This document shows positions 1-13,788 of a stretch of DNA of 64,000 nt, piece by piece (within the stretch, counting starts at the first letter, position 1; every line of letters starts with the position of its first letter). The stretch covers positions 310,001-374,000 of the forward strand of contig RDZE01000015.1 in NCBI GenBank assembly GCA_004293905.1, in the 5' to 3' direction. Origin of the DNA: Cytophagales bacterium (GTDB lineage: Bacteria; Bacteroidota; Bacteroidia; Cytophagales; Microscillaceae). A program made the translations under genes and the position numbers. The notes under the pieces are model-generated. The model ran no database searches, was not told the origin of the DNA, and saw only the letters and a program-made list of their open reading frames with translations.

Positions 1-475
1 TGATGGTAACTTCGAGGTATTGCTTTTGCATTTCTATTTCATCATTGTTATCTTGAAGTTCTTTAATCATCGCCTCGAGATACTGCTTCTGCATTTCTAT
101 TTCATCATTATTGTCTAATAGTTTTTTGATGGTGGAGCGTAGTTCTTCTGATTGCAGTTTTATTTTTTTGTTTTTTCTTCTGAGTTGTTGGTTTTTTTGT
201 TTTACTTGTTCTTTTTGTAATTCATTTTCTTCAATGACTTTTGCCATATATTCACTGGTTTGAATGAACATATTTTTTTGTGCTTCTACATATTCCTTCA
301 AATAATCATATTCGTTTTCTTTTCTTTGTAGTGTATTTTGTGTGTCTTTTAGCTCTATAGACAAAAGATTGACTTCAAGCTCTTTTTCAGCCAATAATGC
401 ACGTAGTTTTTCTATTTCCTCCTGTTGGGAGGTAGTAGATGCATTAGAATCTAATATTTTGTCTATTTTTGTCAA
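1..475 (-). CDS. Coiled-coil protein, N-terminal part (cut by window edge)
   Basis: The reverse strand is open from a stop at 485-487 to the window edge. The best available start is TTG at 475, because no ATG lies near the 5' end. About 158 residues are visible. They are almost entirely heptad-rich, charged coiled coil (Glu/Lys/Gln/Leu), with no signal peptide or membrane segment. Near the edge a 21-residue unit beginning DNNDEIEMQKQ is repeated twice, which is three heptads and a 63-bp DNA period. Similar Q-x-x-EI-x-x-Q linkers precede the SpoIIE phosphatase domain in the TPR protein at 16407, so the missing C-terminus may be a phosphatase or kinase. That is inference. It is divergent from the bilin reductase gene, with starts only 37 bp apart. 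Confidence 0.6.
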   Translation of the reverse strand, partial: MTKIDKILDSNASTTSQQEEIEKLRALLAEKELEVNLLSIELKDTQNTLQRKENEYDYLKEYVEAQKNMFIQTSEYMAKVIEENELQKEQVKQKNQQLRRKNKKIKLQSEELRSTIKKLLDNNDEIEMQKQYLEAMIKELQDNNDEIEMQKQYLEVTI

Positions 476-512: not shown

Positions 513-1220
513 ATGTTATCACATTTAAGTTTATTACATAGCCTTGTTTTATCTTGGCTTGAACGCATAGGAGCTCGGACGTTGGCAGTACCTTCTGAAT
601 TGGCTTTGATGGAGGCTACAGTCAAAGGTGAGCAAGCTGAGATGCGTAGTTGGGCTTGGGAGCAAGATTTTTTTCACTACATTCGGCTGAGTTACTTTCG
701 AAGTAAACAGCGCGTAGAGATGCTCAATTTAACTCTTTACCCACGTATTGAGTATGAAATTCCCATGTTTGCGACTGATTTTGTGATAGTGGGCGACCGT
801 TTAAGGATAGGGTTGATAGATGCTATGCCTTTATTAGATACTGCCGAATATCAGGCGCATTGGGTTACTCCTTTTGCTCCTTTGTATGCAAAAAGCAAGG
901 CTTTGGCGGTGCAGTATGAGCGAAAATTGGATTGGAGTTTTCGCTATTTGAGCCCTCATGCTTGTATGGCTACCCAATTAGAGTTGAATCAATTGCCTGC
1001 TTTGTTTGAGTTATGGGAGGCTTATTTTTCTTTGTATTGGCAACTTTTGAACAATACGCCTCAACACACTTCGGCAGATTTTCAATCTTTAGTGCAGCAT
1101 TGGCAGCAAGACTATAATACATCGCATTTAGCCGTTGAGCACGATAGAAACCCTTTGATGCATTACTTTGGTACAGAATTGGGTAAGCGTTATCATGAGG
1201 AGTTTCTATTCCGTTTATGA
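513..1220 (+). CDS. Ferredoxin-dependent bilin reductase (PcyA/HY2 family)
   Basis: The 235-residue product matches the Fe_bilin_red family, which reduces biliverdin to phytobilins using ferredoxin. Seen: the central YPRIEYEIPMF segment (residues 76-86), whose Glu80 sits where PcyA has its catalytic Glu76; the LIDAMPL segment, with Asp103 at the place of PcyA Asp105; and the C-terminal pattern YFGTELGKRYHEEFLF typical of the family's end. By rough spacing no His lies at the PcyA His88 position, so the bilin product cannot be predicted. Length fits the family (about 230-250). I start at the ATG at 513, because the longer open frame upstream runs antisense to the coiled-coil gene. The gene converges on the phytochrome and heme oxygenase cluster, which supplies biliverdin. 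Confidence 0.82.
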   Translation: MLSHLSLLHSLVLSWLERIGARTLAVPSELALMEATVKGEQAEMRSWAWEQDFFHYIRLSYFRSKQRVEMLNLTLYPRIEYEIPMFATDFVIVGDRLRIGLIDAMPLLDTAEYQAHWVTPFAPLYAKSKALAVQYERKLDWSFRYLSPHACMATQLELNQLPALFELWEAYFSLYWQLLNNTPQHTSADFQSLVQHWQQDYNTSHLAVEHDRNPLMHYFGTELGKRYHEEFLFRL

Positions 1221-1223
1221 TTG

Positions 1224-1658
1224 TCAGACTTCGAGAGCTGGCTTGCTTAGTGCAGTATCTGCATATTTTTCGGGCAGTAGCCATGCTTTTGCCTCAAGTT
1301 CGTCATTGAAGAAGGCAATATCTACTTGGTATTTCTGAATGTATGTAGAAATGATGCGCACAGAGATACGGTTGAAGATATTTTTTGCTACAATTACGGC
1401 TATTTTCTTTACGCCTGACGAAACGGCTTGTATCGCTTTGGGCAACCACTCTTCTACTGTCCAATCTTGGTCTTCATTGATGATGTTTTCACTTTCTTTG
1501 TAGTTGAGTAACCATAGGGCATTTTCGTTTTTTTCGATGAGTTGTAAAAAATCTTGATGCCCTTTGCGATAGTCTATGGTATCTAATAGTCCTAACCATT
1601 CCATAATGGCAATGGAATCGTTGGTTTGCACTTTTAAATAATTGTTTTCTGTTTCCAT
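1224..1658 (-). CDS. SpoIIAA/STAS-like protein (copy 1)
   Basis: This 144-residue cytosolic protein is a clear paralogue of the next gene (1688-2128): both share NSIAxMEWLGL-like starts, a WLLNY strand near the middle, a WTxEEWLP helix and a closing xAxxWLL motif. The layout (strand, helix, LLNY strand, helix, strand, terminal A-x-x-WL) resembles the SpoIIAA-like branch of the STAS superfamily, but the phosphorylatable Ser of classical anti-sigma antagonists is not recognisable. The start at 1658 is preferred because the longer frame would overlap copy 2 and begins with a low-complexity basic stretch. It is last in the leftward phytochrome cluster, 29 bp after copy 2. A partner-switch or adaptor role is inferred from fold only. 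Confidence 0.7.
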   Translation of the reverse strand: METENNYLKVQTNDSIAIMEWLGLLDTIDYRKGHQDFLQLIEKNENALWLLNYKESENIINEDQDWTVEEWLPKAIQAVSSGVKKIAVIVAKNIFNRISVRIISTYIQKYQVDIAFFNDELEAKAWLLPEKYADTALSKPALEV

Positions 1659-1687
1659 TGTGAATGTAGTTATATTGGTTGTTGTTT

Positions 1688-2128
1688 TTATTCTGTGATT
1701 TCCATTTCTTCCACTTGGTCTTGTGGTTCGGCGGTGAGCAGCCAATCTATAGCATCACTTTTATTTTCGAAATAAGCAATTTCGGCAGTGCTATTTTGTT
1801 CTATTTGACCGCTGATGAGTCTTACCGCAACTTTATTAAATATATCTTGTGAAAGTATGATGGCTACTTTTTTCAAGTTGTGGTCTATGTGGTTCAGTGC
1901 AACGGGCAACCATTCTTCGGTTGTCCATTTTTGGTCTTTGATATCAATCACCTTTCCTTGTGCATAATTGAGAAGCCAGAGGGTACTTTTATGTTCTTCT
2001 AAGAGTTTCAGAAACTGCTCCATGCCTGTTCTGTAAGCCTCTGTTTTGGCAAGCCCCAGCCACTCCATATTTGCTACGGATTCTTCTTCGGTATTGATTA
2101 TTATGTATTCTTCCTCGAAGTAACTCAT
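1688..2128 (-). CDS. SpoIIAA/STAS-like protein (copy 2)
   Basis: 146 residues, soluble, no signal peptide. Residues about 20-60 (MEWLGLAKTEAYRTGMEQFL, then TLWLLNY) and the end (IAYFENKSDAIDWLL) align with copy 1 at 1224-1658 and more weakly with the 134-residue protein at 51954-52358. The alternating strands and helices and the terminal AxxWLL are like the SpoIIAA-like family (STAS superfamily), in which small alpha/beta proteins bind a partner kinase or phosphatase. It lies 30 bp after the phytochrome stop, in the same direction, so co-transcription is likely. The duplication next to an output-less phytochrome suggests that these proteins carry the signal by protein contact; that is inference. 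Confidence 0.72.
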   Translation of the reverse strand: MSYFEEEYIIINTEEESVANMEWLGLAKTEAYRTGMEQFLKLLEEHKSTLWLLNYAQGKVIDIKDQKWTTEEWLPVALNHIDHNLKKVAIILSQDIFNKVAVRLISGQIEQNSTAEIAYFENKSDAIDWLLTAEPQDQVEEMEITE

Positions 2129-2158
2129 AGTATCTTTTTTTTGGGTAGTGAGACAATT

Positions 2159-3670
2159 TTAGATGGATAATAAAGCATCTCTTAATTCTTTTGCCATTTG
2201 TATTTCATAGCTTCTCCAGTTTTCGGAGGTGTTTTCTACGTCTTTTTTCCAAGCTGAAAAAGATTTGCGAGGCGATACGCGCATTGTTTTTTCGTCAATG
2301 TGCAATGCTTGGTCGGGGTTTCCTGCCCAAGTAGCGGCTAAAATTCTTTCAGGGCGAAACCAAACGATGTATTCGCTTTTTGCCTTAGAAATAGGAATGA
2401 GCATGAGCCCACTTGCGGCATGTTTGATGGATTCTGCTCCGTCTAAGAGGGCTGCTAATCTACTTGTTACGAAAAAGCCATTGGGGTCTTCTTGGTAGAG
2501 CAAATTGAAAGAGGGGTTGCTGAATACTTTCATGAGTGCCTCTGCTTCCGTTTGCGAAGGAGTGTAGCCTGCGAGCGTGAGCTGTCCGTTGCGCAAAATA
2601 CCTACTCCATCTGCATTAGTGAGTGCGAGTAGTGCGTTCGTAGCTCCGTTTGCATCATTGTTTTTAAGGCTTTGAATTGCAGCATCTTTATAGACTTTGA
2701 GACGACTGGTATGGGTTGTATCGTCATCTAATTGATTGAGCATGGCGACGAACATTTCAACGATTTGTTCGCAAACAAGTCTATTGATATAGGGCACAAA
2801 CTTGCCTGAGTAGTGGTGGCAGGCAAACATTCCTATCATTTTTCCATCGCGCATGATGGTAAAAGACATAGAGGAGTTGATGCCTAAATTGCGCATGTAT
2901 TCTATGTGAGTAACTGCTACGGCACGCAAGATAAAGTTAGACATATTGAGTGGCTTGCGCGTAAGCGGGTTGATTTCGGGAAACAATAGTACTTGCTGCT
3001 CTCCGAGGTCGGGGAGGTATCGGCTGGCAGTATTCATATAGAGTTGGCGTACTCGCTGTGGAATATCGGAAGCGGGGAAGTGTAAGCCTAAGAATGAATC
3101 TACCCCTCTTACAGTGGCTTCAGCTATTACTTGTCCGTGGTATTCTTCATCGAATTTGTAATACATCACGCGGTCAAAGTCAGTAAGGTCGCGGATTTCG
3201 TTGGTGGCTATCTCTATGAGTTGCTCTACGAATACTGCGTTCTGAAATTTCTCCATTGCTTGCATTGCTCCCATTTGATAGGCTTCGTTGTTATCAATTT
3301 CAGAGCGTACTGGCTCTATTTCTGCAATCAAGAAACCATCGCTTCGGGCGAGTATGGCATCGCAAGCCATTGTTCCGAATTGTAGCCTGAGTGGGTTTAT
3401 CATGCTGAAGTTAGAGGATTGCAGGCTTTTGGTGAGTTTTTCACCACTTTGTGGGTCTAAGAAGCTAATGATGCTTTGGTTAATCATTTGCTTGTGGTCG
3501 ATTCCCATTATTTTTTGTGTATTTTGGCTAAGTTGCAATATTTTGAGTGTTGGTTCTTGCATAACCAATAGTGCTCCGTGTGATTGAATCTTGCCGGGGG
3601 TTTCGAAGTTGTAGCGATCGCATTCGGTTTCTATGCTTTCGCGGGGTGATAAATTCAAATTACTCATCAT
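2159..3670 (-). CDS. Bacteriophytochrome photosensory module (PAS-GAF-PHY, no output domain)
   Basis: This 503-residue red/far-red photoreceptor has only the sensory core. Residues 17-35 carry the biliverdin-binding Cys17 in the TECDRYNFETPGKIQ context that opens bacteriophytochromes. PAS spans about 18-120, GAF about 150-310 with the PASDIP motif (199-204) and chromophore-contact His255, and PHY about 325-500 with the paired tongue motifs WFRPE (about 434) and PRKSF (468-472). Thr254 occupies the place where plant and cyanobacterial phytochromes have the bilin-binding Cys. The protein ends right after PHY, where a histidine kinase, PAS or GGDEF would normally follow, so the signal must leave through other proteins. 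It lies between heme oxygenase (71 bp upstream) and two STAS-like genes. Confidence 0.93.
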   Translation of the reverse strand: MMSNLNLSPRESIETECDRYNFETPGKIQSHGALLVMQEPTLKILQLSQNTQKIMGIDHKQMINQSIISFLDPQSGEKLTKSLQSSNFSMINPLRLQFGTMACDAILARSDGFLIAEIEPVRSEIDNNEAYQMGAMQAMEKFQNAVFVEQLIEIATNEIRDLTDFDRVMYYKFDEEYHGQVIAEATVRGVDSFLGLHFPASDIPQRVRQLYMNTASRYLPDLGEQQVLLFPEINPLTRKPLNMSNFILRAVAVTHIEYMRNLGINSSMSFTIMRDGKMIGMFACHHYSGKFVPYINRLVCEQIVEMFVAMLNQLDDDTTHTSRLKVYKDAAIQSLKNNDANGATNALLALTNADGVGILRNGQLTLAGYTPSQTEAEALMKVFSNPSFNLLYQEDPNGFFVTSRLAALLDGAESIKHAASGLMLIPISKAKSEYIVWFRPERILAATWAGNPDQALHIDEKTMRVSPRKSFSAWKKDVENTSENWRSYEIQMAKELRDALLSI

Positions 3671-3741: not shown

Positions 3742-4359
3742 TTAGATAGAAGTTGCCAACCAAAGGTCTAATTTTTCGAAAGTTTCTTTGGCTGTTTTTA
3801 TCATTTGTGCCTCTTCTTCGGGGTGCTGCTCGGCAAAGTTGGTGAGTAGGTTTTGAAACCCAAACCACATATTTTTTAGGTTTTCTTTGCCATAACTATT
3901 AAAGTATGCCGCTCCTTGTTGGGCTGTAAATTGAAATTTTTGGTGTAGTTGTCGGCTCAGTACTTGCCCTCCTAAACTTGATCCTTCTATGACGTATAGA
4001 TAGGCTATTTTTTGAGCGGTTGTGTCGAGGGTTGGTATTTTTTTACAAATGGGTATTTGCTGAATTTCTTTGGTTGATAGCCCGAAATATTGCAAATCTT
4101 TGAGTAAATAGGGCGTTTTGCTTCTTTGTTGTATGTCGAAATTCATTTGTTGCCAAAAAGTACCCTCCTTGAGTAGGGGTTCGGTGGCTTGATAAAACCC
4201 ATAAAACTTTTTGAGTAATAATAAATAGTTTTCTTGGGTGATAGTGTTGTCTGTAATTGCTTTTGTAAGCGGATTTAGTTCTATCTTGTCGTGTGCTTGG
4301 GTCGTTGCTTGCTTAATGGCGAGCAAGATGTTTGTGGTTGTGAGTTTGTCTGTGTTCAT
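3742..4359 (-). CDS. Heme oxygenase (biliverdin-producing, BphO type)
   Basis: 205 residues, matching the alpha-helical heme oxygenase family that opens heme to biliverdin, Fe and CO. Seen: the proximal-ligand region KQATTQAHDKIE with His23 as heme ligand, and the distal-helix motif EGSSLGGQVLSRQL (125-138) with the conserved glycines over the heme. Length is standard. It precedes the phytochrome gene in the same direction, the usual bphO-bphP arrangement, so its product most likely supplies the phytochrome chromophore and the substrate for the bilin reductase at 513. No membrane or export signal is seen. Spacing to the repeat-protein gene upstream is 25 bp. Confidence 0.9.
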   Translation of the reverse strand: MNTDKLTTTNILLAIKQATTQAHDKIELNPLTKAITDNTITQENYLLLLKKFYGFYQATEPLLKEGTFWQQMNFDIQQRSKTPYLLKDLQYFGLSTKEIQQIPICKKIPTLDTTAQKIAYLYVIEGSSLGGQVLSRQLHQKFQFTAQQGAAYFNSYGKENLKNMWFGFQNLLTNFAEQHPEEEAQMIKTAKETFEKLDLWLATSI

Positions 4360-4384: not shown

Positions 4385-5293
4385 TTACTTGTTTAGGTTT
4401 GTCAGCAATTCTTCAATGCGTTGGTCTATTTTTGACAAGTATAGGTTATTTGCTCTGATGCTTTTGAGCAGTGCTTCATGACTTTGCTCAAATTGTGCTT
4501 GGCTATTTTGGAGTTGGTTTTTTTGCTGTTCGAGTAGTGCGTCTAATTTTTGTTCTAAGTGGCTAAAATCTTGTTGGTTTTCAGTGTTTTGTTGTGTTGA
4601 GTTTTGAGTTGTTTTCGTTTGAGCGATATGGTAAAGTATGGTATCTATTTTTCTCTCTACTTTTGACAAATAAAGGCTATTGGTACGAAATTGCTCTGCG
4701 AAATTTTGCAAAGAAGACTCCTGAGTAGTACTACCGCCCCCTTGCATAAGGTCTACTTTTCGGTCTAATTTGGAAAGGTAGAGGCTATTAGTACGTATTT
4801 GATTGAGCAAATCTTCTAAAATCTGGGAATTGGGCTGTGTGCTTTGCGCTACTTGGCTGGCTTCGTATTTTCTTTCTAATTTTGAGAGGTAAAGGCTATT
4901 AGTACGTATCTGACTGTATATTTCTTCTAATATTTGCTGATGGTTGCCCTCATTCTGCCCTGTATTTTTTATAAGTTCTACTTGTTGGTTTAGTTTGGAG
5001 ATATATAGATTATGAGTACGCAACTGATTGCTAATGTCTTGGAGCGTTTGTTGCAAAAGAGCATCTTGTTGATAACTTTGTTGTGCGGTACTTTGCTGTG
5101 GCGAATACGTTTCGGTATAAGTCTGTGTATAATTTTCTTCAGTAGGTTTTTGTTCGTATGCCTCTTGGTGGTAGCCATTGATATTGTTTTCCTCTTTGCT
5201 TTGTGGCAAAAATTCAGACAATGATATTTTTTTCTCTAAGAAGGTTTCTTCTTGTTGAATTTTTGTATTCTGATTTTGTTTTGGCGTAAACAT
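4385..5293 (-). CDS. Repeat protein with ~37-residue helical repeats (LYLSK motif)
   Basis: I do not recognise this 302-residue family. After a Gln/Asn/Glu-rich N-terminal 80 residues, it has five clear copies of a motif of the form QxRTNSLYLSKLxRK, with the Arg at residues 92, 130, 167, 203 and 280. The spacing is 38, 37, 36 and 77, so a sixth, degenerate copy probably sits near 241-255 (HLEQKLDALL). Between motifs are Gln-rich linkers and short helices ending in LxxIYxQ-like sequence. It has no signal peptide. Gas vesicle GvpC proteins are also built from 33-40-residue amphipathic helical repeats, so a vesicle-coat or scaffold role is possible, but sequence similarity is not evident. It sits 12 bp after the pseudophosphatase gene. 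Confidence 0.75.
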   Translation of the reverse strand: MFTPKQNQNTKIQQEETFLEKKISLSEFLPQSKEENNINGYHQEAYEQKPTEENYTQTYTETYSPQQSTAQQSYQQDALLQQTLQDISNQLRTHNLYISKLNQQVELIKNTGQNEGNHQQILEEIYSQIRTNSLYLSKLERKYEASQVAQSTQPNSQILEDLLNQIRTNSLYLSKLDRKVDLMQGGGSTTQESSLQNFAEQFRTNSLYLSKVERKIDTILYHIAQTKTTQNSTQQNTENQQDFSHLEQKLDALLEQQKNQLQNSQAQFEQSHEALLKSIRANNLYLSKIDQRIEELLTNLNK

Positions 5294-5305
5294 AATAATT
5301 ACAAG

Positions 5306-6268
5306 TTAAAAAGCGATTCCTAATACAGCATATTTGGGTTTTTGTTTGGCTAACCATTCATTGATTTTTGCTTTTTTATCGGGTAGGGTAGCATCTTGAA
5401 TGGTTTTGGTAGTGGCTTCTACCTCTGTTGTTGGGAGGTCTTTATGCCCTATGTATAGGTTCATTCCGCGCTTAATATCTATAGTCTGCATCGTGAATTG
5501 GGCTTGTGTGTTGCCTAAAAATGCTTCCGCGCCTTTATGGGTTTGTAGTTTTTTGTCTTCCATCACAAAAGCGTGCATTTGAGCATTGCTGCAGAATATT
5601 TTAGCTTGTTTTTTGTCTACGATGACAATGCTTGCTGTGATTTCTTTTGAAAGTTGCGCATATTTTTGTAGTAGTTCTGCACATTTTCGATTCAAAAAAC
5701 GCATCATTTCTATGGTGTCTTTGGCGGCATAACAAATTTCATTGAGTAATTGATGCCCTACTATATTGAGCACTCTATTACTTACTGAGTCATTGGGAGT
5801 TTGCAAAAATACCAGCCGAATTTGACTTTGGACAATCCCCGACCACAAAAAGTATTCTTTGTGTTGTTGTTGTGTAGCAATAAAAGCATTGGGCAAAATG
5901 GCTTGCATTTGAAATTCTGCTTGCAGCACTGTATCTTCTAAAACTTGGGTATAAGTGCTGCTTTCGTGCCCATTAGTTTGTTTATTATTAGTATTCAAAG
6001 ATGATACTGTATTAGAAGAAGTCGTAGGAGCATTTCCATTTTGTAGGTGAGCCATCTGTTCTTTGAGCTGTACGATGGCTTCTTGCACATATTGAAATTG
6101 TTGGCTTACTTGGTTTTTAAAGCCGTTTAGGTCTGTGTTAGTATTCATTTCGGGAAAAGTACTAACGGCATTGTTTGGATTATGATGAAGCATCTCGGCA
6201 GTGCTTTCATCACTATCTACCAAGTGTCTTATTAGTTTCAAAATAAGTGCTTCTCGTTTAGTGTTCAT
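5306..6268 (-). CDS. SpoIIE/PP2C-like pseudophosphatase
   Basis: First gene of the leftward cluster, 320 residues. Residues 105-320 align in order with the intact SpoIIE domain of the TPR protein at 16407: AEFQMQAILPNAFI corresponds to AKHIQEAMLPFPERI, and TASIVIVDKKQAKIFCSN to DVAICVIDNIDKTLEFSG. At each metal site the acidic residue is gone: LQTPNDS (155-161) stands for LDCTGHG, YIGHKDL (272-278) for FSDGYED, WSGI for SGDFYW, and KYAVLGI near the end for DDVLVMGV. It should therefore bind partners without catalysis. The N-terminal 100 residues are a short coiled coil plus a Ser/Thr/Asn-rich linker. Next to two STAS-like genes this suggests a phosphatase-like partner switch. The fold call rests on this internal comparison. 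Confidence 0.62.
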   Translation of the reverse strand: MNTKREALILKLIRHLVDSDESTAEMLHHNPNNAVSTFPEMNTNTDLNGFKNQVSQQFQYVQEAIVQLKEQMAHLQNGNAPTTSSNTVSSLNTNNKQTNGHESSTYTQVLEDTVLQAEFQMQAILPNAFIATQQQHKEYFLWSGIVQSQIRLVFLQTPNDSVSNRVLNIVGHQLLNEICYAAKDTIEMMRFLNRKCAELLQKYAQLSKEITASIVIVDKKQAKIFCSNAQMHAFVMEDKKLQTHKGAEAFLGNTQAQFTMQTIDIKRGMNLYIGHKDLPTTEVEATTKTIQDATLPDKKAKINEWLAKQKPKYAVLGIAF

Positions 6269-6578: not shown

Positions 6579-6785
6579 ATGGCAGTAGAAAAACACATGG
6601 CTTCTTCCAGTTTGGCAGAAGTCGTAGACCGCATCTTAGATAAGGGTATCGTGATAGATGCCTTTGCAAGAGTTTCATTAGTAGGTATTGAGTTACTTTC
6701 GATAGAGGCACGTATTGTGATTGCTTCCGTAGAAACTTACCTGAAATACGCTGAAGCGATTGGACTAACGAGCAGAGTCGCCTAA
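6579..6785 (+). CDS. gvpA: Gas vesicle structural protein GvpA
   Basis: 68 residues, the main shell protein that assembles into the ribbed, gas-permeable wall of gas vesicles. The sequence is nearly canonical: [45 protein letters not shown] spans the amphipathic helix, the beta-hairpin that lines the gas face, and the second helix, and it closes with YAEAIGL. It is shorter than many GvpA proteins because the C-terminal tail is almost absent. It is the only full GvpA-type shell gene seen; the other two family members (8483, 10529) look like minor GvpJ and GvpM/S types. A hairpin with a T-run follows at 6809-6851, probably setting high gvpA over downstream gene expression. Confidence 0.97.
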
Positions 6786-6808
6786 ACGTGATAACTTCTC
6801 TATGATAC

Positions 6809-6851
6809 AACTTGCCAAATCAGATTTACAAATGACTTTGGCAAGTTTTTC
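6809..6851 (+). terminator. Hairpin and T-run after gvpA (partial terminator)
   Basis: Eleven-base arms AACTTGCCAAA (6809-6819) and TTTGGCAAGTT (6837-6847) pair perfectly around a 17-base loop and run into five T residues. Since the rest of the gvp genes follow in the same direction with tight spacing, this is most likely a leaky terminator that makes gvpA mRNA more abundant than the accessory genes. Confidence 0.7.
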
Positions 6852-6926
6852 ACCTACATTTTTATCAATCATCAATCATTACATTCACAATTTTTTGTAA
6901 CATTCACAATTTTCACTTTTACGCTC

Positions 6927-7244
6927 ATGAACACACTCCAAGAACAGGCACAAATACTCAAGAGCCAAACCCACATACTACTGCGTCAAATTCATGCAGA
7001 ACGCGAAGAAAAAGCCAAACAAGCACAAATAGACCGTAAAAATACTTTACAAAGACTCAAAAGTGAAACAAAACTGTGGTTTCAACACTGCCAAAATGAA
7101 AAGAAAAATAGACAAGACAACCTACAAAGTCTTAGACAGTATGTAAGCCAACTACTACATCAATTCCAAGAGCAAAGACAGGCGTGGTTTGCACAGGAAA
7201 ATATCAAAAGCATGCCTATTCTCTCTATTCGCACTAAAAAATAA
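6927..7244 (+). CDS. GvpC-like coiled-coil protein
   Basis: 105 residues, nearly all charged amphipathic helix rich in Gln, Lys, Glu and Arg with scattered aromatic residues (LWFQH at 50-54, AWFAQ at 86-90). Two segments, about 18-32 and 50-64, look alike at an offset of 31-33 residues, close to the 33-residue period of cyanobacterial GvpC, which binds and stiffens the outside of the vesicle. The place between gvpA and gvpN is the cyanobacterial gvpC position. Similarity to known GvpC sequences is not obvious by eye, so the call rests on position, length and helix type. It follows the gvpA terminator by 75 bp and is 14 bp before gvpN. Confidence 0.5.
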   Translation: MNTLQEQAQILKSQTHILLRQIHAEREEKAKQAQIDRKNTLQRLKSETKLWFQHCQNEKKNRQDNLQSLRQYVSQLLHQFQEQRQAWFAQENIKSMPILSIRTKK

Positions 7245-7258
7245 AGCCTTAGCCACGC

Positions 7259-8212
7259 ATGATCACCGAAGATAGAACCATCTTAGAACTCAAACCCCTT
7301 GAGAACTTTGTAGAAACTGACTATGTGAAAAATATCACACATAGAGCCTTTCACTACATCAAGGCAGGCTTTGCTGTCCATTTCAGAGGACCCGCAGGCA
7401 CCGGAAAAACGACCATCGCGAAGCATCTCGCCAATTTATTGGGGCAGCCTTTGGTGATGATTCACGGAGACGAAGAACTCACCACCTCTAATATGATTGG
7501 CGGTGAGTATGGCTTTCGTTCCAAAACTATCATAGACAATTACATTGCTTCTGTGGTGAAAAAAGAAGAAAATTTTACCAAACATTGGATAGACAATCGA
7601 CTTACGGTCGCATGCCGATATGGATTCACGCTCATTTATGATGAATTTACGCGCTCCAGACCCGAAGCCAACAATGTTCTTCTTTCTATCTTAGAAGAAA
7701 AAATGATTAACCTGCCTATATCAAGAGGTGGCGAAGACCCCTACTTGCCCGTACACGAAAACTTTGCTGCCATCTTTACCTCAAACCCCGAAGAGTATGC
7801 AGGTGTATACAAAACCCAAGATGCACTCCGCGATAGAATGGTAACCATAGATTTAGATTTCTTCGACTACGAAACCGAAGTAGCCATTACCAAAGCCAAA
7901 AGCGAAGTCAGTATAGAAGAAGCCATTTTCATCGTCAATATTGTAAGAGCACTCCGCGATTCGGGCGAGTGCGAATTTTCGCCCACAGTGCGCGCTGCCA
8001 TCATGATAGCCAAAACAAGCAAAACAATGGAGCTACTCCCTACCAAAGATTTAGCCATATTCATAGCCATCTGCCAAGATATTTTGGGCTCTGAAACCAG
8101 CCGCGTAGGAAGTATTAGCAAACACCTCAAAACAGTCAAAGACCTTATCAAAGAAATTATAGAGTACCAAATCAAATTTTTTGGGAACAAAAACTACCAA
8201 AACGCATCATAA
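7259..8212 (+). CDS. gvpN: Gas vesicle protein GvpN (MoxR-type AAA ATPase)
   Basis: 317 residues, an AAA+ ATPase required for normal vesicle enlargement. Seen: Walker A GPAGTGKT at residues 44-51, Walker B TLIYDE at 124-129, the TSNPEEYAGV sensor-1 region about 180-190, and RDRMVTIDL just after, typical of the GvpN/MoxR group. Length is standard for GvpN. The preceding HFRGPAGTGKTTIAKHLA and the MIHGDEELTTSNMIGGE loop are characteristic of GvpN rather than other MoxR proteins. It lies third in the gvp operon, 3 bp before the next gene. It probably acts as a chaperone ATPase at the growing vesicle. Confidence 0.95.
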   Translation: MITEDRTILELKPLENFVETDYVKNITHRAFHYIKAGFAVHFRGPAGTGKTTIAKHLANLLGQPLVMIHGDEELTTSNMIGGEYGFRSKTIIDNYIASVVKKEENFTKHWIDNRLTVACRYGFTLIYDEFTRSRPEANNVLLSILEEKMINLPISRGGEDPYLPVHENFAAIFTSNPEEYAGVYKTQDALRDRMVTIDLDFFDYETEVAITKAKSEVSIEEAIFIVNIVRALRDSGECEFSPTVRAAIMIAKTSKTMELLPTKDLAIFIAICQDILGSETSRVGSISKHLKTVKDLIKEIIEYQIKFFGNKNYQNAS

Positions 8213-8215
8213 AAT

Positions 8216-8470
8216 ATGAGTTATAAAGCCATTTACTTCCGAAAACTGAGCGTCATTCCTCATAAAAAAATTTCTTATGAGGTACAAATGTATATGCTCG
8301 AAAAAGAAAAAAACCGCTACAAAAAAGAGTTGGAAAGACTTTTGCAAAGAAAGCAATACATCGAAGCACGACTCATCGATATAGAAAAAGAACAGCAAAC
8401 GCTTACGCAATCTTTTGCCCAAAAACTACCCATAGAAAAGAAATGGCAAAAGAAGACAATTCAATACTAA
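8216..8470 (+). CDS. Small coiled-coil gas vesicle cluster protein (GvpV-like position)
   Basis: 84 residues, basic, with a helix rich in Lys/Glu/Arg from about 28 to 75 (KEKNRYKKELERLLQRKQYIEARL). It begins with the non-helical MSYKAIYFRKLS. I cannot assign it with certainty. Small helical proteins such as GvpV, GvpH or GvpI occur in most gvp clusters, and it sits tightly between gvpN (3 bp) and a gvpJ-type gene (12 bp), so a role in vesicle assembly is very likely. No signal peptide or cysteine is present. Confidence 0.6.
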   Translation: MSYKAIYFRKLSVIPHKKISYEVQMYMLEKEKNRYKKELERLLQRKQYIEARLIDIEKEQQTLTQSFAQKLPIEKKWQKKTIQY

Positions 8471-8482
8471 TGAAAATACACC

Positions 8483-8788
8483 ATGAATGAAAAAAGAATT
8501 GTACATACTACTGACTCCACCAACTTAGCCGATATTTTGGAGCGAGTGTTAGACAAGGGCATCGTCATTGCAGGCGATATCAAAGTCAATATTGCCGATG
8601 TAGAACTACTCTCCATCAAAATCCGATTGGTTATCTGCTCCGTAGACAAAGCCAAAGAAATAGGCATCAATTGGTGGGAAAAAGATGCCTACCTCTCCGC
8701 AAAAGCCCAAGCTTTAGAAGAAAACAACGCTATTTTGGCGCAAAAAATAGAAGCCTTAGAAAACCAAATCAAAACCTTACAACCTTAG
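8483..8788 (+). CDS. gvpJ: GvpJ-type minor gas vesicle protein (GvpA/J/M family)
   Basis: 101 residues. Residues 13-65 carry the GvpA-family core (LADILERVLDKGIVIAGDIKVNIADVELLSI), then KAKEIGINWWEKD, the ending usual in GvpJ/GvpS proteins instead of the GvpA ending YAEAIGL. A C-terminal helix (about 68-98, Ala/Glu/Gln-rich) is added. GvpJ proteins are minor wall or cap components that start vesicle formation. It is 10 bp before the first gvpF/L gene. Confidence 0.85.
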   Translation: MNEKRIVHTTDSTNLADILERVLDKGIVIAGDIKVNIADVELLSIKIRLVICSVDKAKEIGINWWEKDAYLSAKAQALEENNAILAQKIEALENQIKTLQP

Positions 8789-8798
8789 ACAAACACGC

Positions 8799-9548
8799 AT
8801 GGAAAATAACTACTACCTCTATGGCATAGCCCTGCATGAGCAACCTATAGAACACCTTAGTACCTTAGGAATAGCCGAACTTCCCGTATTACAACACAAA
8901 AACGAACTCGTAACCATTCTTTATAGCCCTCTCGAAAGTACGGAAAGCGATTGGTTAGGCACAAGAAAAAACCTCATCGCTCATCAAAAAGTCATAGAGT
9001 TTTTTTTGCCACATACCACTGCCGCCCCCTTCAAATTTGGCACTATAGCCAATGAAGAAACCCTAAATATTATCTCACAAACACGAAAAGAGGCTTTTTA
9101 TCAGGAACTAAAACAATACGAAGGAAAAGTAGAATACAACCTAAAAGCCTTTTGGAAAGAAATAAGTCTTATATTTGAACAAATAGAAGCCGAAAATCCT
9201 CACATCAGAGAACTCAAAGAATACATCATTGCTACTGCCCAGAATGTGCCTACCAATAGTGCTATGATAGAGGTAGGCAAACAAGTTCAAATGGCATTAG
9301 AGCAGAAAAAACAATCACTTGCAAAAGACATGATTGAAAAAATAAAGCCATACGTCATTCATTACAAAATGGAAGAAAACAATCTTGATGTACTTTTTTT
9401 GCAAGTAGCTCTCCTGATAGATAAAACGCAAGAACAAGCCCTTGATGAAGCAATACAAAATATAGCCGAAGAATACAACGACAATATTCAATTCAAATAC
9501 ATAGGTCCTTCCGCGCCTACATCGTTCATGAATCTTCAGATTTCTTAA
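8799..9548 (+). CDS. gvpL: Gas vesicle protein GvpF/GvpL (copy 1)
   Basis: 249 residues of the GvpL/GvpF family, minor proteins needed for vesicle formation that bind GvpA. It opens with the family's YYLYGI strand, then a Val/Leu strand (VTILYSPL), the helix AHQKVIEFFLPHTTAAPFKFGTI typical of the N-terminal ferredoxin-like half, and a second half with FKYIGPSAPTSF, close to the family ending YxGPxPPYSF. It is most like canonical GvpF/L of the three copies (others at 9795 and 10713). Whether it is F or L cannot be settled by eye. Confidence 0.9.
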   Translation: MENNYYLYGIALHEQPIEHLSTLGIAELPVLQHKNELVTILYSPLESTESDWLGTRKNLIAHQKVIEFFLPHTTAAPFKFGTIANEETLNIISQTRKEAFYQELKQYEGKVEYNLKAFWKEISLIFEQIEAENPHIRELKEYIIATAQNVPTNSAMIEVGKQVQMALEQKKQSLAKDMIEKIKPYVIHYKMEENNLDVLFLQVALLIDKTQEQALDEAIQNIAEEYNDNIQFKYIGPSAPTSFMNLQIS

Positions 9549-9562
9549 ATCCTTATTTTATT

Positions 9563-9805
9563 ATGTTTTTCGCTCGCACACTTCGCAATATAGCACAAAT
9601 CGTCTATGAAAAAGCCGAAAAAGAACTCTATGACATAGCCCAAATCAAAACCGAAATGATGCAATTGCAACTCTCCTTAGATTTGCAAAAAATAACCGAA
9701 GAAGAGTATGAACAAAAAGAAGAAGCCCTCTTAGAAAGATTCAAAGAAGCACAAAGAAGACAAAAAGAAGCCGAAGAAGAAACCTCAGAAGACAATGACG
9801 AATGA
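9563..9805 (+). CDS. gvpG: Gas vesicle protein GvpG
   Basis: 80 residues, matching the short helical GvpG family: the N-terminus FARTLRNIAQIVYEKAEKEL, then a LQLSLDLQKITEEEYEQKEEALLERF helix and a charged Glu/Lys/Arg tail. GvpG proteins lie beside GvpF/L in nearly all gvp clusters and take part in vesicle assembly. The end overlaps the second gvpF/L start by 11 bp, so translation is likely coupled. Confidence 0.88.
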   Translation: MFFARTLRNIAQIVYEKAEKELYDIAQIKTEMMQLQLSLDLQKITEEEYEQKEEALLERFKEAQRRQKEAEEETSEDNDE

Positions 9806-10517
9806 GTTACTTACCTACCTATATGGTATCATTGCCCAACTACCAACACAAACACCGAAAGGGGTAGAATTTGTACCTATAGGTCAATATTTTGCTCTTA
9901 CAACACAAGTAGAGTCGCAAGATTTTACAGACCCTCAATGGTCTGAAAATATCCAAAACATGGCTTGGTTAGAACATAAAATTAGGCAACATGAGGAGAT
10001 AATACAGTTTTTTATTACCCAACAAGATATATTGCCCTCCAAATTCCCCACTCTTTTTGCCTCAAAAGAAAGCCTACAAACTCAATTTGTAGAGCGGCAA
10101 CTTTGGCTGAAAAACAATTTCGAACGCCTTCAAGACAAACAGGAGTGGGATATAAAAGTATGGCTACAACCTACATCACAACCTACCAAAGATGCTCCCC
10201 CAAAAAGCCAAACAGGAAAGTCCTATTTTTTGGAAAAAATAAAAGAAAAAGAAAAAAAACAAAACCAAACAGCGCAAATCAATCAGTTTTGTCAAGATTT
10301 GTGGAACAAACTTTGCCTTATTTCTACAGAAATGACGCAAGCCAAAACACAAGAAAGCACCATGCTATTCAGAATTATTATGTTATTGCGAAAAGAACAA
10401 TCATTGTTACTTGCTAATACCATAACAGAAATGAACGAAGCAGCACAAGCAAATGGCGTATTTCTAACCCTAACAGGTCCTTGGGCGGCGTATCATTTTA
10501 TGACAGATACACCCTAA
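9795..10517 (+). CDS. Gas vesicle protein GvpF/GvpL (copy 2)
   Basis: 240 residues. It begins with TYLYGIIAQ, has the helix EHKIRQHEEIIQFFITQQDILPSKFPTLF matching the family's DAVVEAL-like segment, and ends with VFLTLTGPWAAYHF, the family's closing GPWPPYSF-like motif. A Lys/Gln-rich loop (about 130-165) separates the halves. It starts within the end of gvpG. It is clearly diverged from copy 1, suggesting old duplication and different roles (F against L). Confidence 0.85.
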   Translation: MTNELLTYLYGIIAQLPTQTPKGVEFVPIGQYFALTTQVESQDFTDPQWSENIQNMAWLEHKIRQHEEIIQFFITQQDILPSKFPTLFASKESLQTQFVERQLWLKNNFERLQDKQEWDIKVWLQPTSQPTKDAPPKSQTGKSYFLEKIKEKEKKQNQTAQINQFCQDLWNKLCLISTEMTQAKTQESTMLFRIIMLLRKEQSLLLANTITEMNEAAQANGVFLTLTGPWAAYHFMTDTP

Positions 10518-10528
10518 AAAAACTAAAA

Positions 10529-10720
10529 ATGCAAAGTATTCAGCCCTCAGTACAAATAAAACAAGAAACATCGCTTGCCGAAATCTTAGACAGAGTATTG
10601 GCACACGGGGTAGTCATACAAGGCGAGCTTGTAATTTCGGTGGCAGAGGTTGATCTTATCTATCTTTGTGTCAATATACTCATCACATCTGCCAATCCTC
10701 ATCAGCCTAAAAATGAATGA
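10529..10720 (+). CDS. GvpM/GvpS-type minor gas vesicle protein (GvpA family)
   Basis: 63 residues from the ATG at 10529, which lies 11 bp after the upstream stop; a longer frame would overlap that gene. The core SLAEILDRVLAHGVVIQGELVISVAEVDLIYLCVNILI is a GvpA-family domain of the GvpM/GvpS type (VDLIYL in place of VELLSI). It has no C-terminal extension. Such proteins are minor components of the vesicle ends. It overlaps the third gvpF/L gene by 8 bp. Confidence 0.82.
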   Translation: MQSIQPSVQIKQETSLAEILDRVLAHGVVIQGELVISVAEVDLIYLCVNILITSANPHQPKNE

Positions 10721-11393
10721 TGCAACACTTTATATATATGCTTTTGCGGCAAAAAAAATACCTACGCTTGTCTATAGAGGTATAGAGGAGAGCCCTATAC
10801 AATATACCCAGAAGGGTAAGGTAGTCGCTATTTGGAGTTATTTGAACAACCCTCAAGAATTACAAAAAAACCTATACTCCGATACACAATCTGCTGCCCT
10901 CAAACACTATACACTCCTTTCCGAAATTGCTCCTACGACTGCATTACTCCCTTGTAAATTTGGGACAATACTCAAAAATGAAGAAGATTTAGCACAATTG
11001 ATTACCAACCAACAAGATGCCTTATTAGCATTGCTAACACAAATAGAAAATTGTTGTGAATATGACCTTAAAATAACACTCACTGAAAAAGCAATTCCCC
11101 AAACAGGCACAGAATACCTAAAACAAAAACAAGAATTACTAAAAACTCATCAACAAATAGAAGCTGAATTATCGCATTTGCCTTTGCAATACCCCGAAAT
11201 CATCAAAAAATATGTATTTCATAAAAAACAGGATAGTTTTTTGTCTAATAGTAGTTGGTTAGTGAGTAACTCCGAAGAAGCACGATTTTTATCAATCATA
11301 GCAACTCTTCAGCAAAAAAATATGCATTGGCAGTATAGCCTCAGTGTTTATCCCTTTCCTTATAAAACAATTCAATTAAATTTCACCCTTTAA
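10713..11393 (+). CDS. Gas vesicle protein GvpF/GvpL (copy 3)
   Basis: 226 residues from the ATG at 10713, which overlaps the previous stop by 8 bp; the longer upstream frame is not used. Seen: TLYIYAFAA start, KHYTLLSEIAPTTALLPCKFGTI (the helix and strand with KFGT shared with copy 1), a YDLKITL strand, and QYSLSVYPFPYKTIQL at the end, where the family's GPxPPY motif has decayed to YPFPY. It is the shortest and most diverged copy. Three F/L genes in one operon is more than the usual one or two. Confidence 0.8.
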   Translation: MNDATLYIYAFAAKKIPTLVYRGIEESPIQYTQKGKVVAIWSYLNNPQELQKNLYSDTQSAALKHYTLLSEIAPTTALLPCKFGTILKNEEDLAQLITNQQDALLALLTQIENCCEYDLKITLTEKAIPQTGTEYLKQKQELLKTHQQIEAELSHLPLQYPEIIKKYVFHKKQDSFLSNSSWLVSNSEEARFLSIIATLQQKNMHWQYSLSVYPFPYKTIQLNFTL

Positions 11394-11716: not shown

Positions 11717-12109
11717 TTATTCTACTATCATACGCGTCAGAATATCTACAATTTTTTCATTATTGAGCGGCTTCACCATATAACCCTTCACCATTGCATA
11801 TTGGCTGGTTTTGTTTACATCTTTACTGTCTATAGAAGAAGTAAGCATCACCACTAAAAAATTGGTTTTATTTTGGGCAATGAGTTTATCCAATAATTCC
11901 CAACCACTCATTACAGGCATATTGATATCCAATAATACCAAATCGGGCTGGTCAGTATCGCCTAAAATAGCCTCGAGAGCATCTTCGGCAGCATCATAGA
12001 CTGATATAGACAGTTGACTTTCGTAACGTGCAAGCATTTTTTGGTTGATAAGATTATTGATTTTATCATCATCTACCAACATGATTTTACGGATTAGGTT
12101 GTGTCCCAT
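11717..12109 (-). CDS. Single-domain response regulator (CheY-like)
   Basis: 130 residues forming one receiver domain and nothing else. Seen: the acidic DDD near residues 13-15, the phosphoacceptor Asp in LVLLDINMPVMSGWELLD (about 60), LTSS (about 90) for the switch Ser/Thr, and the invariant Lys in YMVKPL (about 112). It overlaps the sensor gene by 16 bp and is transcribed with it, so it is the obvious phosphoryl partner. Having no DNA-binding output, it probably acts by protein contact. Its position against the end of the gvp operon may be chance. Confidence 0.92.
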   Translation of the reverse strand: MGHNLIRKIMLVDDDKINNLINQKMLARYESQLSISVYDAAEDALEAILGDTDQPDLVLLDINMPVMSGWELLDKLIAQNKTNFLVVMLTSSIDSKDVNKTSQYAMVKGYMVKPLNNEKIVDILTRMIVE

Positions 12110-13788
12110 AATTGTTCTTGGTCATTTTGTTGTTCTAAAGCTTTATTCATTTTATGGATTACACCATCGAGTTCTTGGGCTGAAATATACAAATTTTTAA
12201 TAATTTCGAGGTTAAAACCATCTGTAGGGTCTTCTTCATTAAAAAGAGAGATTAATCCCAAAATATTAGCTAAAGGCTTGCGTAACTCGTGTGAGGTAAT
12301 AAATGCATAGTTCCTAAATTGCTGATTTTGTTGATTGAGCAGTTCTTCGGCTTGTTTTCGGCGTGTAATTTCTATACGTATGGCTAAATATTGTTCGGGT
12401 TTGCCTGTAGTATCGTCCAAAATAGGTACAATGGTAGTATCAACCCAATAATAACGCCCATTTTTAGCTTTATTTTTCACTTCTCCTTTCCAGATTTTCC
12501 CTTTGCTAATCTGTCGCCACATGCGCGCAAAAAACTCTTTATCGTGGTAGCCCGAATTGATAATTTGATGACTATTGCCAAGTAATTCTTCTTTACTATA
12601 GCCCGATATAATACAAAAAGCATTGTTTACTTCCACTATGATGCCTTTTTTGTCGGTAATAGCCAAAATTGTAGAAGAATCAAGTGCTGTACGAAAATCT
12701 TGAAGGGTTTTGCTCTTATATCTGATTTCTTCAATGGCTTGTTTTTCTTTGGTAATATCTTTTAGTACACCAAAAAAACTAATTACTTCTTCATTATCAT
12801 TCTTTACGCTATAGCCCTCCGTAAATATATAGTGTACTCCTCCTTCAATATCTATCATTCGGTATTCAGAGGCAACTATCTGGTTTTCGGATTGTGTTCT
12901 GTCTAAATTTTGTTGAAGCATAGGCGCATCTTCAGGATGCACAAACTGGAAAAAATTTTCTATGGTAGGTTTAAAACTTTTATCACGAATTTTTAAGATT
13001 TCGTACACCTCATCTGACCAAAAAATATCTGTCGTTTTTACATTCCATTCCCAATAACCTATTTTGCTAATCCTTGAGGCTTCTTTAAGTTTTTGCTCGC
13101 TTTGTCTAAATTTTTCTAACACCTCTATATAGCTCTCAATGGTAGCCCTTAGTTCGGCTTCGCTTGCAGAAAGTTCTTCGTTCAACTCTTGTTGTTTGAA
13201 ATAAAGTTCTTTGTAATTATTATTTTCGGCTTCTTTTTCTCTCTGAAAAGTTAGACTTTGAATAATGACCGTACAAGTATTGGTAAACGGAGTAAGGAAT
13301 TGCACTATTTCTTCAGAATAGCCATCAGGTCGGTTGGCAATGCCTATCATTCCTATTATTTTTTGATTTATTAACAAGGGTATTCCTAAAAAAGCATTGA
13401 GCGGAGGATGACCTTTGGGTGTTCCGCCTGCGCGTGGGTCGGTTGGAGGGTGATTGGCTATAACAACATTTTGCGTAACCATCACTTCCCCAAAAAGAGT
13501 TTTGAGGTTATAAAACTCCATGCCTTCACTTTCTTGTTGTTCATAGAATTGACGCGTATAGTCGTTCCAAGCAATGTTTGTAACAGCTATGGTTTTCAGA
13601 TAAGGTTGTTGCTTTTCTGGGTGGTAAAATACCCTGCCAATAAAACCATACTCACTTTGTGTAATATCCAACAAAGTATCTAATAAATAATAAAATATTT
13701 CTTTTTCTGTTTTTGCTCCCCCTATATAATGCTCTTGAGCTTGATTAATTGCTTTGAGTAAAGAGTATTGTTCTGCCGATGAAAACAT
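12094..13788 (-). CDS. GAF-PAS-PAS sensor with DHp helix pair but no ATPase domain
   Basis: 564 residues, soluble. Domain order: GAF about 25-185 (with GIPLLINQKIIGMIGIAN), a coiled coil about 190-235, PAS about 240-345 ending GVLKDITKEKQA, a second PAS about 360-485 with the typical GYHDKEFF and YYWVDTTIVPILDD segments, and a DHp helix with the H-box SHELRKPLANILG, His500. The protein stops 64 residues later, with no N, G1 or G2 boxes. The receiver gene starts before its end, so no ATPase domain was lost by frameshift nearby. It may be a phosphotransfer or scaffold protein served by another kinase, or a pseudokinase. Confidence 0.85.
   Translation of the reverse strand: MFSSAEQYSLLKAINQAQEHYIGGAKTEKEIFYYLLDTLLDITQSEYGFIGRVFYHPEKQQPYLKTIAVTNIAWNDYTRQFYEQQESEGMEFYNLKTLFGEVMVTQNVVIANHPPTDPRAGGTPKGHPPLNAFLGIPLLINQKIIGMIGIANRPDGYSEEIVQFLTPFTNTCTVIIQSLTFQREKEAENNNYKELYFKQQELNEELSASEAELRATIESYIEVLEKFRQSEQKLKEASRISKIGYWEWNVKTTDIFWSDEVYEILKIRDKSFKPTIENFFQFVHPEDAPMLQQNLDRTQSENQIVASEYRMIDIEGGVHYIFTEGYSVKNDNEEVISFFGVLKDITKEKQAIEEIRYKSKTLQDFRTALDSSTILAITDKKGIIVEVNNAFCIISGYSKEELLGNSHQIINSGYHDKEFFARMWRQISKGKIWKGEVKNKAKNGRYYWVDTTIVPILDDTTGKPEQYLAIRIEITRRKQAEELLNQQNQQFRNYAFITSHELRKPLANILGLISLFNEEDPTDGFNLEIIKNLYISAQELDGVIHKMNKALEQQNDQEQLWDTT

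Follow-up and report, generated by a model that had tools for sequence, protein, structure and literature searches.

The window, meaning the whole stretch of DNA analysed here (64,000 nucleotides), carries near its start a gene for a ferredoxin-dependent bilin reductase (FDBR) beside an operon that encodes a phytochrome. The features of this part of the window are as follows.

1..475, minus strand: beginning of a SpoIIE-type phosphatase, apparently intact at 440 aa, that runs beyond the window (PF07228, 2.1e-20, on L084 9153-10475)
513..1220, plus strand: FDBR of 235 aa (PF05996, 2.2e-31; alignments; AF2/Foldseek)
726-728, plus strand: FDBR Asn codon at the place of PcyA His88 (alignment)
777-779, plus strand: FDBR Asp codon at the place of Asp105 (alignment)
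1125-1127, plus strand: FDBR His codon at the place of GtPEBB Arg215 (alignment)
1137-1139, plus strand: FDBR Glu codon at the place of PebS Asp206/GtPEBB Asp219 (alignment)
1224..1658, minus strand: SpoIIAA-like (STAS-type) protein 2, whose ORF, counted from an upstream TTG, reaches to 1745 (PF11964, 1.4e-6; syntenic in the related genome G476)
1688..2128, minus strand: SpoIIAA-like (STAS-type) protein 1 (PF11964, 1.8e-5; syntenic in G476)
2159..3670, minus strand: kinase-less phytochrome of 503 aa, PAS-GAF-PHY only (PF08446, PF01590, PF00360)
2909..2911, minus strand: Thr254 codon at the GAF-Cys place, before His255 (alignment)
3620..3622, minus strand: Cys17 codon, N-terminal biliverdin-type Cys (alignment)
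3742..4359, minus strand: heme oxygenase, the sole one found in the genome (PF01126, 5.4e-18; single genome match)
4385..5293, minus strand: repetitive coiled-coil protein of the phytochrome operon (homologue in the same order in G476, phmmer 2e-23)
5306..6268, minus strand: protein with a coil and a degenerate SpoIIE-like part, encoded by the operon's first gene (G476 homologue, 2e-46, itself a weak SpoIIE match)

The operon on the minus strand thus reads SpoIIE-like coil protein, coil protein, heme oxygenase, phytochrome and two SpoIIAA-like proteins. The FDBR gene stands outside it, on the opposite strand, and converges on the 3' end of the operon with a gap of 3 bp, while the SpoIIE-type phosphatase gene at 1..475 (minus strand) is divergent from the FDBR gene. 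The predicted heme oxygenase (3742-4359, minus strand) completes the bilin pathway. Upstream of the window, L084 5982-9080 holds a second cassette of a coil protein, a SpoIIE-coil protein and a 150-aa protein, which resembles the start of the phytochrome operon.

A sequence-only reading of this DNA had described a biliverdin-type phytochrome next to a PcyA/HY2-type reductase, and both parts of this description were borne out. In the alignment, Cys17 occupies the biliverdin site, ahead of the PAS domain, and Thr254 the GAF-Cys place, which is the arrangement of a BphP. The remaining bilin pocket is kept (PASDIP, Arg249, His255, Tyr258 and His285) and is an otherwise standard biliverdin pocket. 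Nothing follows the PHY domain, and the histidine kinase output domain that is usual, though not universal, in BphP is missing. The adjoining reductase (513-1220, plus strand, versus 2159-3670, minus strand, for the phytochrome) runs from an ATG at 513 to a stop at 1220, and its PF05996 score of 109.7 bits against a cut-off of 31 places it in the FDBR family. Its AlphaFold model (pLDDT 78.9, pTM 0.80) has the FDBR fold and matches the structures of GtPEBB, PebA, PcyA and HY2 in Foldseek.

The sequence-only reading had also found no obvious counterpart of PcyA His88 in the reductase and had proposed an alignment with the known classes. When the protein was aligned with PebA, PebB, PebS, PcyA and HY2, together with two Bacteroidota relatives described below, the window FDBR showed Asn at the His88 place, Asp105 kept and Ser at the Glu76 place. 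All three Bacteroidota FDBRs have Asn and Asp at the first two of these places and Ser or Thr at the third, as well as Glu at PebS Asp206/GtPEBB Asp219 and His at GtPEBB Arg215. This active-site set, Asn-Asp-His-Glu, is unlike that of any PebA, PebB, PebS, PcyA or HY2 sequence compared. Since PcyA requires Glu76, His88 and Asp105 (PMC10151467), and Ser/Thr, Asn and Asp are found here, PCB is an unlikely product of the window enzyme. The Arg215-Asp219 pair of PebB and HY2 (GtPEBB numbering), of which both residues matter for A-ring reduction in GtPEBB (PMC6755814), is replaced by His and Glu in all three. In the tree, the three Bacteroidota FDBRs formed one clade (100/100) on a long stem, which fell outside PebA plus PebS (98/97); the clade is clear and its attachment point poorly supported. 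The best BLAST and structure matches of the window FDBR were PebA, PebB and PebS, and the closest plasmid matches were PebA genes. Judged by residues alone, the protein carries the pre-2 signature (Asn at His88, Asp105 kept, without Glu76; PMC10151467). Pre-2 FDBRs share this Asn/Asp combination, and the pre-2 enzyme CAP_1520 of Chondromyces makes phytochromobilin (PMC10151467). Sequence is not a reliable guide to what an FDBR makes (PMC13193486); the product here may be new, as the sequence-only reading had suggested, in that none of the FDBR classes compared has this active-site set. A literature search found nothing on Bacteroidota FDBRs, and the clade is apparently a Bacteroidota lineage of FDBRs without a description in the literature found. 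It could correspond to one of the two new, uncharacterised clades in the FDBR tree of PMC13193486. Phage cargo was rejected as an origin of the gene, phage matches being only cyanophage genes at 22% identity and IMG/VR yielding no relative. Contamination was likewise rejected, since the window is embedded in a 422-kb contig and the same clade occurs in two other genomes of the order.

The FDBR is rare: it was found in 3 of the 391 genomes of the order, belonging to three different families, and a phylum-wide sample of 396 yielded only the window's own genome. The two other carriers are a Bernardetiaceae MAG (G476) and a MAG that carries the label 'uncultured Thalassobius' yet was assigned to this order (G536). 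In all three genomes, a kinase-less phytochrome of 503-526 aa is encoded next to genes for heme oxygenase and SpoIIAA-like proteins. The operon of G476 follows that of the window gene for gene, and the G476 phytochrome is 71% identical to the window copy, with Cys17 and with Thr at the GAF site. The 526-aa phytochrome of G536 (L042 9762-11342) adjoins a pair of heme oxygenase genes and one for a SpoIIAA-like protein; it has the canonical phytobilin GAF Cys (CPDCHLQY), and its N-terminal Cys is one residue out of register. In the PSM tree, G536 joined the other two phytochromes weakly (94/0, long branches). The FDBR and phytochrome genes of G476 and G536 are on different contigs, so the linkage in these genomes rests on co-occurrence, and the G536 FDBR adjoins a gene that looks like trpC. 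Several further features of G536 were seen in passing. In its phytochrome, PAWETP replaces the near-invariant PASDIP (Asp to Glu). One heme oxygenase (L042 8240-9370), adjoining the second one at 7602-8213, has a C-terminal extension that by eye resembles a SpoIIAA-like domain. L045 8016-10913 encodes a degenerate phytochrome-like kinase without the N-terminal Cys, GAF Cys and GAF His.

The GAF site was compared across 152 phytochromes of the order, taken from the better-scoring matches listed, of which 151 were usable and one was read in the wrong frame. Ile, Val, Leu or Met occupied the site in 146 of them, Phe or Tyr in two, Thr in two (the window and G476) and Cys in one (G536). A polar GAF residue therefore occurred, among the matches listed, exactly in the FDBR genomes (3/3 FDBR-linked phytochromes versus 0/148 others), for which the probability by chance is about two in a million if kinship is disregarded. 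Because the window and G476 share their Thr by descent, at most two independent events are involved. The confinement of the polar site to the phytochromes of the three FDBR genomes, among these matches, links the reductase to the phytochrome. The short form of the phytochrome was rejected as a marker of the FDBR, as many genomes of the order have kinase-less phytochromes but no FDBR, and in a sample these phytochromes adjoin CheB-like fusions.

One option raised by the sequence-only reading was that the reductase serves a different photoreceptor, and another phytochrome or cyanobacteriochrome with a GAF Cys in the same genome, clearly using the reductase product, was named as what would speak against the puzzle. 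Such a protein was looked for and was absent from the genome (3.29 Mb, 90% complete). Profile searches identified a single FDBR, a single heme oxygenase and two phytochromes; the second phytochrome (contig C39) has an N-terminal Cys and, at the GAF site, Met. Only these two phytochromes, among 23 GAF hits, matched the phytochrome-type GAF profile; no cyanobacteriochrome-like GAF was seen among the 23 hits, 20 of which had loci that were scanned, and a PF00502 search for phycobilisome-type globins in the 90% complete genome was negative. A second bilin user was accordingly discarded as a candidate on the basis of the 2 PHY hits, the 23 GAF hits and the PF00502 search, and the option of a different photoreceptor found no support in this genome. 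Two sensor proteins (window 12094-13788 and L002 736-3018), one of which is the second phytochrome, stop after a stretch that resembles the HisKA (dimerisation) helix pair (SHELRKPLANILGL and SHEVRRPLANILGL) and have no visible ATPase domain.

We think that the reductase probably tunes the colour of the clustered phytochrome. Heme oxygenase would supply biliverdin, which the neighbouring FDBR would reduce to a phytobilin, most likely one reduced by two electrons at the A-ring, such as phytochromobilin, and probably not PCB. This pigment would be loaded into the kinase-less phytochrome, via Cys17 or non-covalently in the window protein and via the GAF Cys in G536, and would move the red/far-red switch to shorter wavelengths than in a biliverdin phytochrome. 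The signal would pass to the SpoIIAA-like and SpoIIE-like neighbours and perhaps onward to the adjacent gas-vesicle genes. For this chain as a whole, we put the chances slightly better than even. Against it stand the small number of genomes (n=3, two of which share Thr by descent), the otherwise standard biliverdin pocket of the window phytochrome and the lack of a GvpA match in G476.

Use of a phytobilin without the GAF Cys, one of the options raised by the sequence-only reading, is favoured by the co-occurrence of the FDBR with a polar GAF residue, by the true GAF Cys of the G536 relative and by the precedent of Acaryochloris AM1_5894. AM1_5894, which has a PAS Cys and no GAF Cys, binds both biliverdin and PCB via its PAS Cys, the covalent attachment of PCB requiring Cys11, and its peaks are at 682/734 nm with PCB versus 705/758 nm with biliverdin, a blue shift of ~23 nm (PMC4901347). 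By analogy, the window phytochrome could bind the FDBR product as AM1_5894 binds PCB. The host of AM1_5894 is a cyanobacterium able to make phytobilin, and unlike the window protein, AM1_5894 has kinase and receiver domains; what is particular to the window protein is its GAF Thr and the absence of an output domain. Bradyrhizobium ORS278, with BphP3 and PcyA, likewise combines a phytochrome and an FDBR in a non-cyanobacterium (cited in PMC10151467 and PMC13193486), but BphP3 is a PCB phytochrome and its FDBR is a PcyA of the AX clade. On the side of the enzyme, the window FDBR resembles, by published signature, the pre-2 pre-PcyA FDBRs such as CAP_1520: the host is a heterotroph whose genome also encodes heme oxygenase, Asn stands at the His88 place, Asp105 is kept and Glu76 is absent; it differs from the pre-PcyA FDBRs in its link with a phytochrome, no bilin-binding globin having been found. 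With PebA, PebB and PebS of cyanobacteria, algae and cyanophages, the window FDBR shares the fold, Asn at His88 and Asp105, while Glu for Asp206, His at Arg215 (3/3 Bacteroidota FDBRs) and a separate clade set it apart. The GAF Cys is present in BphP3 of Bradyrhizobium ORS278. The contrast between a biliverdin-type Cys and an FDBR is real and unusual, but it is partly explained by precedent and less paradoxical than first stated, because cyanobacteria hold both and some PAS-Cys phytochromes bind PCB.

Three other explanations were considered. The phytochrome could be an ordinary biliverdin phytochrome, with the FDBR supplying an unrecognised biliprotein, e.g., an unknown globin or GAF-like protein. 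The intact biliverdin pocket, the association of FDBRs with bilin-binding globins in pre-PcyA bacteria (PMC10151467) and a genome that is only 90% complete are in line with this, but the negative PF00502 search, the lack of a cyanobacteriochrome-like GAF among the 23 GAF hits and the unusual GAF residues of the co-occurring phytochromes, including one Cys, make it unlikely. Biliverdin-style binding through the retained Cys17, with no need for a GAF Cys, would also be expected if the FDBR product kept its A-ring vinyl, as in 15,16-dihydrobiliverdin or 18-ethyl biliverdin. PebA, whose genes are the closest plasmid matches, makes the former compound, and the Arg of PebB and HY2 for A-ring reduction is His here (PMC6755814). 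Yet Glu76 and His88, which in PcyA are tied to PCB formation, are missing, and the presence of a GAF Cys in G536 speaks for an A-ring-reduced bilin. In addition, a bilin reduced at 15,16 could not photoisomerise at C15. We regard a product that keeps the A-ring vinyl as improbable.

We give slightly less credence still to a role of the FDBR in heme or biliverdin breakdown or redox protection, unconnected with light sensing. Heme oxygenase followed by FDBR is also a route of heme turnover (discussed in PMC10151467), the window FDBR is on the other strand, and that of G536 adjoins the trpC-looking gene; however, the window FDBR abuts the phytochrome operon, and an enzyme that is very rare in the order is present exactly where, among the matches listed, the polar-GAF phytochromes are. 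If the preferred reading holds and a reduced bilin is carried in vivo, the rule by which a PAS Cys indicates biliverdin and a GAF Cys a phytobilin would be shown to break down physiologically, and phytobilin synthesis in a non-photosynthetic heterotroph would be tied to a phytochrome and not to globins or antennae. Natural variants of a single receptor type, with Thr and with Cys, are available to test the rule.

The output side adds the following features, divergent from the phytochrome operon.

6609..11393, plus strand: gas-vesicle cluster
6609-6725, 8522-8638 and 10571-10687, plus strand: GvpA domains (PF00741)
7259-8212, plus strand: AAA ATPase, GvpN-like (PF07728)
8799-9548, 9795-10517 and 10710-11393, plus strand: GvpL/F (PF06386)

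GvpA was found in 2 of the 391 genomes of the order, both FDBR carriers (the window genome and G536), and the third carrier, G476, gave no match. Phytochrome-linked gas vesicles were not found in a literature search. A kinase-less phytochrome beside SpoIIAA/SpoIIE and gas-vesicle genes points to a testable path by which light could affect buoyancy, and moving the response away from far-red light, which water strongly absorbs, would make sense in a floating bacterium. We consider it doubtful that the locus represents a third phytochrome pigment use in full, i.e., a PAS-Cys phytochrome without GAF Cys, taking its chromophore from a dedicated Bacteroidota FDBR of a new lineage (Asn-Asp-His-Glu), with kinase-free SpoIIAA/SpoIIE signalling and red-light control of gas vesicles. 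Output by partner switching through the SpoIIAA and SpoIIE neighbours would be a reasonable reading of the gene order. None of 10 other kinase-less phytochromes sampled in the order had such neighbours, and the five whose neighbours were listed all border on a long ORF, at least four of these ORFs being CheB-like. A 150-aa neighbour protein also links the loci, but weakly, because its family is widespread (108/391 genomes), which ruled it out as a specific marker; the tightest subfamily is also present in two genomes that lack a phytochrome match.
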